A stretch of DNA of 64,000 nucleotides, taken from the NCBI RefSeq assembly GCF_023195885.1, contig NZ_JALPKO010000002.1, positions 62,001-126,000 of the forward strand, in the 5' to 3' direction. Below are positions 36,680 to 40,285 of the stretch, piece after piece. How positions within the stretch are numbered: the first letter of the stretch is position 1; each line of letters starts with the position of its first letter. A model generated the notes under the pieces. It ran no database searches. It was not told the origin of the DNA and saw only the letters and a list, made by a program, of their open reading frames with translations. Both the position numbers and the translations under genes were made by a program. The DNA comes from Methylonatrum kenyense. Lineage in GTDB: Bacteria; Pseudomonadota; Gammaproteobacteria; Nitrococcales; Aquisalimonadaceae.

Positions 36680-36727
36680 TTTGCAGGTATGCTGCGCACC
36701 CGGCTATCGAGCAAGAGTCTGTCGCCA

Positions 36728-37330
36728 ATGACGAACAAACGCTATCACCAGGCCCGGTTCCTGATGAGTGCCGCGGACCTGTCCCAGCTACCGCCCGATC
36801 AGGGCCGCGAGATTGCCTTTGCCGGACGCTCCAACGCAGGCAAATCCAGTGCGCTCAACCGTCTTACCGGACAGAAAGGACTGGCACGGGTGAGCAAGAC
36901 GCCCGGTCGGACCCAGTTGATCAACGTATTTCCGATCTCCGATACAGAGGCATTGATTGATCTCCCGGGATACGGCTATGCCAAGGTGCCAGAGCGTGTG
37001 AAACAACAGTGGCAGGCCCTGCTGCCGGTCTACCTGACGGAGCGACGCTCGCTGGTCGGACTGGTATTGATCATGGACAGTCGCCACCCGTTGCGGGACT
37101 TCGACCGGCAAATGCTGGACTGGACCGCTGCCGCGGGCCTGCCGGTGCATATCCTGCTGAGCAAGGCGGACAAGCTCAGTCGCGGTTCCGCCGGCAACGC
37201 GCTGCAGGCCGTTCGCAAGGAACTGGCACGCCGCGTTCCGCCGGTCAGTGTGCAGCTGTTCTCGGCCGTGGACGGACGCGGCGCGGAAGAGGCCTGGGCG
37301 GCGATGGACGCCTGGCTGGATCAGCGCTGA
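36728..37330 (+). CDS. engB: ribosome biogenesis GTPase EngB (YihA/YsxC)
   Basis: From ATG 36728, 200 residues. GTPase motifs in order: G1 GRSNAGKSS (about residue 34), G2/switch I with [10 protein letters not shown]3 DLPGYGYAK (about 80), G4 LSKADKL (about 145), and G5 FSAVDGRG. Essential for large ribosomal subunit assembly. Its place next to polA with an RNA gene between them is a widely conserved gammaproteobacterial arrangement. A frame extension to 36689 lacks a ribosome-binding site. Confidence 0.95.
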
Positions 37331-37337
37331 GAAAACC

Positions 37338-37369
37338 CGGATTACCGGGAACCCGGCGCCGTTTTTTTT
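37338..37369 (+). terminator. intrinsic terminator of engB
   Basis: A GC-rich inverted stretch (CGG...CCGG-GAAC-CCGG...CCG) is followed by eight T residues (37362-37369), eight bases past the engB stop. It isolates engB from the RNA gene candidate downstream. Confidence 0.75.
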
Positions 37370-37389
37370 GTCTCAAAGAGTGCGCCAGT

Positions 37390-37504
37390 GCCCGGCGCTG
37401 CCCGCTCCCTTCCCCAACGAACGAGCGGGCTTGATGCAGCCTCCACCCCAGAGGCTGCGAATGTTGGCCCTGGACTTTCCCCCGAGAGCCAGGGCCTTTT
37501 CTTT
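37390..37504 (+). ncRNA. candidate C-rich-loop sRNA (sX13-like) at the engB-polA locus
   Basis: Three consecutive stems: GCCCGCTC/GAGCGGGC (37400-37430, loop with TTCCCC); GCAGCCTC/GAGGCTGC (37436-37458, loop CACCCCA); GGCCCTGG/CCAGGGCC (37466-37496), whose inner part closes on a CCCC loop at 37480-37483. The last is followed by TTTTCTTT, an intrinsic terminator. No frame in this stretch looks coding. Three C-rich loops plus a terminator match my memory of Xanthomonas sX13; the same locus carries Spot 42 or ErsA in other gammaproteobacteria. The 5' end is a guess, since no strong promoter is visible. Such loops could pair with G-rich ribosome-binding sites. Confidence 0.7.
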
Positions 37505-37531
37505 ATCCGCAAAATGGTTGCTGCGCAGACG

Positions 37532-37558: not shown

Positions 37559-40285
37559 TCAATGCGCCTCTTCCCAGTTATCGCCGACACCTACATCCAC
37601 TTCCAGCGGCACCGTCAGCTCGGCGGCGTCAGCCATGATCCGGCTCACCCGATCCGCCACGGCATCCGTCTCGCCTGTCGGGACCTCGAACACCAACTCA
37701 TCGTGCACCTGCATTACCAGCAGCACATCCGGCTCATCCTGATCGAGCCACGTCTGCACCTCGATCATCGCCCGCTTGATGATGTCCGCCGCCGTGCCCT
37801 GCATCGGCGCATTGATCGCCGTGCGCTCGGCATATTGCCGGCGCTGGGCATTGCGGGCATTGATTTCCGGCAGGTACAGGCGGCGGCCGAACGCCGTTTC
37901 GACGTAGCCCTGCTCACGGGCCTGCTCGCGGGTCCGGTCCATATAGGCGCGCACGCCTTCGAAGCGGGCGAAATAACGGTCCACGTAATCCTGCGCCTGA
38001 CCCCGCTCGACCCCGAGCTGACGGGCCAGGCCGTAGGCCGACATGCCGTAGATCAGGCCGAAGTTGATCGCCTTCGCGGCGCGGCGCTGCTCGTCACTGA
38101 CCTGTTCCGGCTCGCCACCGAAAACCTCGGCCGCCGTGGCCCGGTGAATGTCGCGGCCCTCGGCAAAGGCCCGGCGCAGCGTATCGTCGCCGGAGAGATG
38201 CGCCATGATCCGCAGTTCCACCTGCGAATAGTCGGCCGCCAGCAGTCTGTAGCCGTCCGCGGCGATGAAGGCCTTGCGGATTCGCCGCCCCTCCGTGGTG
38301 CGCACCGGGATGTTCTGCAGATTGGGGTCGGAGGAGGACAGCCGACCGGTAGCGGCAACCGCCTGATGGTAGGAGGTGTGCACCCGGCCCGTGTCCGGGT
38401 CAATCATCCGCGGCAGCTTGTCGGTATAGGTCGAGCGCAGCTTCGACAGGCCGCGGTGTTCAAGGATCAGTCGCGGCAGGTCGTAATCCACTGCCAGTTC
38501 CTGAAGCACCGACTCGGCGGTGGAGGGCTGGCCCTTCGGCGTCTTCTGCAACACCGGCAGCCCCTGGCGCTGATAGAGGATCTCCTGGATCTGCTTGGGC
38601 GACCCCAGGTTGAACGGCCCGCCGGCGGCCTCGAAGGCCCGCTGCTCCACCCGCTGCATGCTTTCCGCCAGTTCCCGGCTCTGCCCGACCAGGCGTTTCC
38701 GGTCAACTAGCACACCGTTGCGCTCCATGCGGGACAACACCGGGACCAGGGGCATCTCTATCTCGCGGTAGACGCGGCACAGGGACGCGTGCTGCTGCAG
38801 GCGCGGCCAAAGCGTCTGATGCAACTGCAGGGTGACATCGGCATCCTCGGCGGCATACGCGGTGGCCGAGTCCAGGTCCACCTGATTGAAGGTGAGCTGC
38901 TTGACGCCCTTGCCGGCCACCTCCTCATACTTGATGGTGCCGCGGCCGAGATACTTCAGCGCCAGAGAGTCCATGTCGTGCCGGGTGGCCGTGGAGTCCA
39001 GCACGTAGGACTGCAGCATGGTGTCGTGGGCCACGCCGCGCAGCGTGATGCCCGCGCGCGCCAGCACGCTCATGTCGTATTTCAGGTTCTGCCCGAGCTT
39101 TGGCCTGTCGGCATCCTCCAGCAACGGCCGCAACTGCTCGAGTACCGCTTCGCGGTCGAGCTGATCCGGGGCGCCCGGGTAATCGTGGGCCAGCGGGATA
39201 TACGCCGCCTCGCCGGCGGTGACGGCCAGGCAGATGCCAACGATGTCAGCCTGCATGTAGGACAGGCTGGTGGTTTCCAGATCGAAGGCGAACAACGGCG
39301 CGACCTCGATCCGTTCGATCCAGGCGTCGAGGCCTTTCTGCTCGGTAATGGCCAGGTATTCGGTCGCCGGCTGGGCCGCGGCGTGTTGCTCCTCTGCCGC
39401 GTCCTCACCGTCCAGTAATTCCTCCAGCCAGCTGCGGAATTCCAGCGCCCGATACTGCTCCTTCAGCGCTTCCCGATCCGGTTCTGCCAGGGCAAGGTCG
39501 GCAACACGTTCATTGAGCGCGCAATCGAGCTTGATGGTGGCGAGCTGATAGGACAGGAAGGCCTGGTCCCGGTGCTCCTCGAGTTTCTTCGGCAGGCTCT
39601 TGGCGCCTCGAATCGGCAGCTCCGGCACACGGTCGAGATTGTCGTAGATCCGCTGCAGCGATCCGATCCCCTGCAACAGGCCGACCGCGGTCTTCTCGCC
39701 GACACCGGGCACACCGGGAATGTTGTCCACCTTGTCGCCCATCAGCGCGAGCAGGTCGATGACCAGTTCCGGGCCGACACCGAACTTCTCGACCACGGCG
39801 TCCGGATCAAGCACCGTGCCGCTCATGGTGTTGACCAGTGTGATCCGGTCGTCCACCAGCTGCGCCATGTCCTTGTCGCCGGTGGAAATCACTACCGCCT
39901 GGCCTTCGTCGGATGCCTGCCGCGCCAGCGTGCCGATCACGTCATCCGCCTCGACGCCATCCTCGACGATCAGCGGCAGGCCCATGGAGCGGATGACGTT
40001 GTAGAGGGGCTCCACCTGCTGTCGCAGCTCGTCAGGCATCGGAGGTCGCTGCGCCTTGTACTGCTCGAACAGCTCGTCACGAAATGTCTTGCCCTTGGCA
40101 TCGAACACCACCGCCATCTGATCCGGCTGATAATCCGCCAACAACTTGCGCAGCATGCTGACCACGCCCCGGACCGCGCCGGTGGGCTGGCCCCTGGAGG
40201 TGCTCAGCGGCGGCAGGGCGTGAAACGCGCGGTACAGATAGGAGGACCCGTCCACCAGAACCAGAGGTGCCTTGCTCGTTGTCAT
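37559..40285 (-). CDS. polA: DNA polymerase I
   Basis: 908 residues, normal length. The N-terminal 5'-3' exonuclease (about 1-290) has [16 protein letters not shown] and DVIGTLARQ. The 3'-5' exonuclease (about 310-500) is intact, with [15 protein letters not shown] and YAAEDADVT. The C-terminal polymerase has [13 protein letters not shown] (motif A), [16 protein letters not shown] (motif B) and [11 protein letters not shown] (motif C). It acts in repair and Okazaki fragment processing. It converges with engB and the sRNA candidate and diverges from the LOG gene. Confidence 0.97.

Follow-up and report, generated by a model that had tools for sequence, protein, structure and literature searches.

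Within the window, a 64,000-nucleotide stretch of the Methylonatrum kenyense genome, the gap between the convergent genes engB and polA holds an unannotated small RNA gene, predicted from sequence and real by the measure of its conservation (Table 1). The gene begins 49 bases beyond the engB stop codon, and 55 bases separate its 3' end from the polA stop codon. The predicted RNA consists of four hairpins joined by linkers of 1, 5 and 7 nt.

Table 1. Coordinates of genes and predicted RNA elements at the engB-polA locus (window numbering).
Feature	Position	Strand	Description or basis
engB (yihA), GTPase gene	36689..37330	+	listed ORF; alternative ATG start 36728
SigmaE/AlgU-type promoter-like sequence	37349..37372	+	GAACCC (37349-37354), N16, TC (37371-37372)
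Small RNA gene, predicted transcript ~124 nt	37380..37503	+	covariance models R1 and R3
5' hairpin GCGCC-AGUGCCC-GGCGC	37382..37398	+	fold and conservation
Hairpin 1	37400..37430	+	stem 37400-37407/37423-37430; loop CCUUCCCCAACGAAC (37408-37422); z -5.2
Hairpin 2	37436..37458	+	stem 37436-37443/37451-37458; loop CACCCCA (37444-37450); z -4.9
Hairpin 3 and U-run, intrinsic terminator	37466..37504	+	stem 37466-37479/37484-37496; C-rich apical loop 37480-37483; z -4.8
U-run of terminator, TTTTCTTT	37497-37504	+	directly 3' of hairpin 3
polA (DNA polymerase I), convergent with RNA gene	37559..40285	-	listed ORF

The segment from 37380 to 37510 has a predicted folding energy of -66.3 kcal/mol, compared with -42.6 +/- 3.6 kcal/mol for dinucleotide shuffles (z -6.6; none of 200 as good). 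Hairpins 1, 2 and 3 each carry CCCC in the loop and, folded singly, are each matched in stability by none of 200 shuffles. The initial annotation had described these three strong hairpins, and the fold of the plus strand reproduces its coordinates exactly; the 5' hairpin and the sigmaE-type promoter-like sequence escaped it. The 5' hairpin on its own is matched by 14 of 200 shuffles, and its support is thus conservation rather than energy. Hairpin 3 was not flagged by a simple terminator scan of the window; we take it to be an intrinsic terminator, as originally proposed, because the fold, the U-run and conservation all back this. The RNA had been placed at 37390-37504, which is the right locus, although the 5' end, judged from promoter distance and model start, probably lies ~10 nt further out, giving an extent of 37380-37503. 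At Rfam gathering level the window yields a tRNA alone, with no family at the RNA locus, and a search for a related phage record found none.

The RNA is widely conserved in the order to which the window belongs. When 95 genomes, among them that of the window, were searched at the DNA level, 31 matched: 13 of 14 from the window's family, 17 from a second family and one from a third. The 5' hairpin motif (one position free, one two-fold) occurs in all 30 fetched loci, a count biased by 17 of these having been found mainly through the 5' hairpin stretch itself; L010, L012 and L013, found through the 3' part, also carry the motif. It is not kept in the loci of family f5 that were found later by model. 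The first MAFFT alignments (A1, A3 and A4) misplaced stem 1 or stem 2 between families, so covariance model R1 (12 sequences, 33 pairs) was built from one family, the second (alignment A5), and then used to align the rest. R1 scores in 47 of the 54 genomes of the order, which bears out the original proposal of a small RNA gene in the polA-engB gap.

All 33 pairs show double-sided changes with pairing kept in the 47-row order alignment, 94.8% of cells being paired as against at most 47% with partners slid, and none of 500 shuffles reaches any of five measures; this alignment is fitted to the structure and contains one false row, and the covariation effect is therefore somewhat flattered. The MAFFT alignment A5 agrees, with 96.7% of cells paired versus at most 46% and double-sided change in 11 of the 33 pairs. 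The CCCC motif is found in loop 1 of 15, loop 2 of 43 and loop 3 of 46 of the 47 rows. Compensatory changes in the stems had been suggested as a check, along with invariant C loops; the former are seen, but the C-run of loop 1 is not invariant, and even within the window's family several members have lost it. The false row, L065, is an R1 match that looks like coding sequence and is not matched by the later model R3. It is among the 47 rows behind model R2, the covariation and the loop counts; the promoter count, made on 46 members, excludes it.

Seven genomes of the order have no R1 match. Four of these lack a true engB in the assembly (G002, G023, G035 and G049), and two (G027 and G029) have diverged copies of the RNA that score 24-25 bits. 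The copies in G029 (L085) and G027 (L086) are strongly diverged versions following engB on the same strand. Their stretches contain no polA, and further downstream the opposite strand carries a gene with an ABC-ATPase motif. In the seventh, G045 (L080), the polA-engB gap is intact and no RNA copy was found in it by model or by reading. Named records with the motif beside engB or polA include Aquisalimonas, Nitrococcus mobilis Nb-231, Spiribacter, Ectothiorhodospira and Thioalkalivibrio. The stretch contains engB or polA for 28 of the 32 pattern hits; of the other four, one is a second copy in Aquisalimonas lutea and three (L203, L204 and L229) were judged to be chance.

The RNA extends well beyond the order into the Gammaproteobacteria, which in the GTDB sense take in the former Betaproteobacteria. 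At E 0.01, model R2, made from the 47 order rows, has matches in 118 of the 369 class genomes, which represent 94 of 272 genera. The 100 loci analysed contain 115 matches; this set omits the order's own four rows and 11 unfetched rows of the R2 search. Seven further loci (L192-L198) match R2 again and stand outside the flank and promoter counts. Model R3, built from the 115 class sequences with none from the window's order, matches 145 of 274 genomes and, by score, 119 of 222 genera at E 0.001, and finds the window's genome once. On the window, R1 scores 65.0 bits and R3 73.1 bits (E 8e-15 in 127 kb), both matches spanning 37380-37500. Across the 115 class sequences, 91.5% of cells are paired versus at most 49% with partners slid. 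CCCC occurs in loop 2 of 105, loop 3 of 80 and loop 1 of 17 of these sequences, and loop 1 reads UCCCU or CUCCC in 97.

The locus is kept along with the fold. By tblastn with the window's EngB and PolA, one or both genes were found at 101 of the 115 class matches, a count unchanged with wider queries; the distance to the nearer of the two is at most 200 bases in 86, at most 500 in 96 and never more than 1,654. The RNA lies on the polA strand with both neighbours present in 53 of the 115, opposite engB alone in 27 and on the same strand as polA alone in 15; six have the strand order of the window. Neither gene was found in the 2-4 kb around 14 matches, even with the wider queries, and these, some of which keep the motif and fold, may be copies elsewhere or chance. 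Tandem copies occur as two in nine of the 100 loci and as four in two more, L096 (G223:C33:13151-13900) and L172 (G330:C8), the four RNA genes lying between engB and polA. At L100, an RNA with the full fold has GAACTTTT upstream and neighbours that look like hslV-hslU and rimO rather than polA; the RNA at L105 is near-identical to it. Rfam matches to the cspA thermoregulator, just over cut-off, lie beside the RNA gene at L115 (956-1396) and L128 (1513-1946), in two genomes of one family.

A sigma70 promoter scan found none, and we therefore took up a sigmaE reading of the sequence upstream of the RNA, where GAACCC-N16-TC has the layout of an RpoE/AlgU promoter. Of 46 order members, 42 carry GAAC-N17-20-TC no more than 70 bases upstream (shuffles: mean 3.1, maximum 8), as do 94 of 115 class members (mean 6.9, maximum 15). 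The stricter GAACTT form occurs in 23 of 46 and 68 of 115, respectively (shuffles 0.1 and 0.5). In control stretches 300-380 bases upstream, the loose form was found in 2 of 45 order and 8 of 114 class members. In most members 7-11 bases separate the end of the TC from the model start; in the window the distance is 7 nt. The spacer of the window's promoter-like sequence contains a T8 run, which may belong to an engB terminator. Both RpoE (318 bits) and Hfq (101 bits) score over cut-off in the window's genome.

The strand of the RNA relative to its neighbours bears on whether it is a gene in its own right. It could instead be an element of the engB 3' UTR or a processed RNA from the 3' end of the engB mRNA, acting in cis or released by RNase E and having no promoter of its own. 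We consider this unlikely, even though every one of the 12 loci of the window's family with a readable engB has the RNA after that gene and on its strand (the window and 11 others, contig 1 of Aquisalimonas lutea among them; in a thirteenth locus the RNA is opposite polA) and the -35 box of the window, GAACCC, is weak and off consensus, that of the sister genome G001 being GAACTT. In the sister family (Nitrococcus, Spiribacter), however, the RNA is opposite the engB strand and follows polA, lying on the polA strand in all 16 loci with a readable neighbour. Such strand flips between families mean that the RNA is no fixed 3' UTR of either engB or polA, and an independent gene is the simpler account. 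The sigmaE-like motif stands directly upstream of the RNA in both orientations, which likewise argues against dependence on engB, as does the second RNA copy in A. lutea (L005/L211, NZ_JAUFPK010000007.1), which has no engB or polA within 3 and 4.9 kb on either side. That copy adjoins a transporter-looking gene and repeated genes.

We consider it likely that the locus is an autonomous, RpoE-driven gene for a trans-acting regulatory RNA of ~124 nt, whose C-rich loops block G-rich ribosome-binding sites. Envelope stress would free the sigma factor RpoE, which would transcribe the RNA gene from its own promoter, with transcription ending at hairpin 3. The stable stems would display the C-rich loops, and these would pair with G-rich ribosome-binding sites, thereby blocking translation; AGUGCCC in the 5' hairpin is a possible further contact. 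The best candidate target is hfq, and some porins are possible targets. For the window's lineage, we infer transcription, RpoE control, pairing and repression alike.

The proposal that hfq is a target draws on sX13 of Xanthomonas. There, repression of Hfq::GFP by sX13 depended on loop 2 of the RNA and on a 4G motif shortly downstream of the hfq start (PMC3771888). The hfq leaders of the window's family (L249, L280-L291) have GGGG between -13 and -7 in 13 of 13 cases, with varying flanks, and the window's genome has a further GGGG at +9 to +12 of hfq. GGGG is found near the start of 6 of 32 background leaders (Fisher p 4e-7), a value uncorrected for relatedness that overstates the case because the 13 hfq leaders are relatives; a G-rich ribosome site is also simply a strong Shine-Dalgarno site. 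Loop 2 is complementary to the hfq GGGG site over 5 nt in the window's genome and over 6-7 nt in G005, G008 and G011, and loop 1 is complementary over 6 nt in G001. No 5-nt loop word matches the site under the accessibility rule in G006 and G009, two of the 12 genomes tested (G010 left out). Porin leaders are not clearly enriched in GGGG (7 of 17 versus 6 of 32 background, p 0.17), and duplex energies with porins are slightly better for loop 3 (p 0.047, one of three loops, uncorrected).

The initial annotation had pointed to G-rich sites in the window itself. These GGGG sites are indeed present, directly ahead of the starts of atpA (59418), probable atpI (62049, named by eye), a regulator-like gene (1531) and the 46194 gene (46207). 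A crude count of gene starts in the window gave GGGG at 3 of 52, which is too rough for use. The idea of G-rich targets is plausible, with hfq a better candidate than these four sites.

The C-rich loops might serve a different end, that of binding Hfq or another RNA-binding protein, so that the RNA is a sponge or decoy rather than an antisense regulator. The C tracts stay while the stems vary, and hfq may be part of the circuit, both of which suit a protein sponge. Also in its favor, compensatory mutations in sX13 and its target failed to bring back control of hfq (PMC3771888). In the same paper, however, the 4C motif of the loop and the 4G motif of the target were both needed and Hfq was dispensable, and we regard the sponge as improbable. 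Convergent genes need terminators, and hairpin 3 with its U-run is one, but a mere strong terminator region for engB and polA with no regulatory role is very improbable, as the U-run serves the plus strand alone, the minus-strand hairpin has no T-run behind it, and hairpins whose stems covary are conserved throughout the class together with their C-rich loops and a promoter-like motif upstream.

Rfam places the RNA closest to sX13. The gathering scores are 50 bits for sX13 (RF02232), 50 bits for ErsA (RF01719) and 49.5 bits for anti-hemB (RF02837). In a 301-base search, the window matched sX13 over its full length at 28.6 bits (E 9e-4), below the cut-off of 50. The designation of the RNA as sX13-type therefore stands as to kind and nearest match and fails as to score. 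Further window matches, all below cut-off, were to 6C (25.3 bits), alpha-r14 (20.8), ErsA (18.3) and CcsR1 (13.7). Alpha-r14, 6C, CcsR1 and others are C-rich-loop RNAs; their scores are far under the cut-offs, and they probably share a style with the window's RNA rather than descent. The RNA was left unnamed at Rfam cut-offs in all 20 order loci scanned, and among 40 class loci it was named sX13 in two, anti-hemB in four and nothing in 34. Searched across the class, the sX13 model matched 15 of 311 genomes (three over cut-off), the ErsA model 13 of 339 (one over cut-off, with nine of the other 12 at R2 places) and the anti-hemB model 141 of 311 (14 over cut-off). The R2 match set includes loci over the cut-offs for sX13 and anti-hemB. 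Of the first 50 anti-hemB rows listed, 35 are on contigs with an R2 match; this holds for 6 of the 16 over-cut-off rows, and typical anti-hemB loci are thus partly outside the set.

These relationships suggest a broader reading, towards which we lean slightly: one ancestral RpoE-driven RNA gene of the polA-engB gap in much of the Gammaproteobacteria, of which sX13, anti-hemB and ErsA would be local descendants and the window's RNA a lineage outside all of these. Strand flips, tandem duplication (up to four copies) and promoter change would have occurred while the C-rich loops and the hold on hfq persisted. If this is true, envelope stress gains a direct grip on the RNA chaperone Hfq. Three RNAs so far studied apart would then share a locus, a fold and, for the most part, a promoter type. 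The family appears to be one widespread group listed in databases as separate, unconnected pieces, and no paper linking these RNAs was found in the open-licence PMC literature, a scope outside which most subscription papers fall. Given a shared locus and fold, what has been learned about ErsA (sigma22, porin OprD) and about sX13 (hfq, G-rich sites) can serve as predictions for more than 100 sampled genera (119 of 222), harmless cultured halophiles among them.

Among the known RNAs, Spot 42 (spf; E. coli, Vibrionaceae) shares the polA locus (PMC3771888). The Spot 42 model (RF00021) had been proposed as a check, but it is absent among the window's Rfam matches to E 10, as is anti-hemB, which has no match elsewhere in the window's genome either. 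The likeness to anti-hemB of Burkholderia lies in the many listed class matches that share a contig with an R2 match. Its strongest match (65.7 bits; L241 in G159) has no engB or polA in 3 kb and is beside an apparent membrane-protein gene. Anti-hemB is ncS04, a 105-nt RNA with strong expression in biofilms of Burkholderia cenocepacia (PMC5688073). Transcription is thereby documented in one possible relative, and sX13 and ErsA add two more.

ErsA (Pseudomon-1) of Pseudomonas shares with the window's RNA the polA-engB gap and a C-rich terminator loop. ErsA depends on sigma22, of the sigmaE family (PMC7565897, PMC8575079), the kind of control predicted for the window's RNA. The over-cut-off ErsA locus, L231, has GAACTT...GTC upstream. 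The window's match to ErsA is partial (34-108 of 116), and SL1 and SL2 of ErsA are separated by an unstructured U-rich domain (PMC8575079), unlike the hairpins of the window's RNA with their short linkers. Homology to ErsA is the weakest link in the broader reading, L231 scoring 26.9 bits with R3.

The sX13 RNA of the Xanthomonadaceae is also beside polA and has a 5' element followed by three C-rich-loop stems, the last of which is the terminator; hfq with a 4G motif is a reported target of sX13 and a candidate target here. Whereas the window's RNA starts with a hairpin, sX13 is reported to have an unstructured 5' end; its expression is described as constitutive and as rising under high salt and heat (PMC3771888). 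The promoter-like sequence of the window resembles that of ErsA more than those of the three over-cut-off sX13 loci, of which L150 and L157 lack the sigmaE-like motif and L140 has the loose form only; none of the three has GAACTT. With an anatomy like that of sX13, a promoter-like sequence like that of ErsA and low scores against both, the window's RNA is by score a member of neither; it is a new lineage of a broad group of C-loop RNAs at the polA locus.
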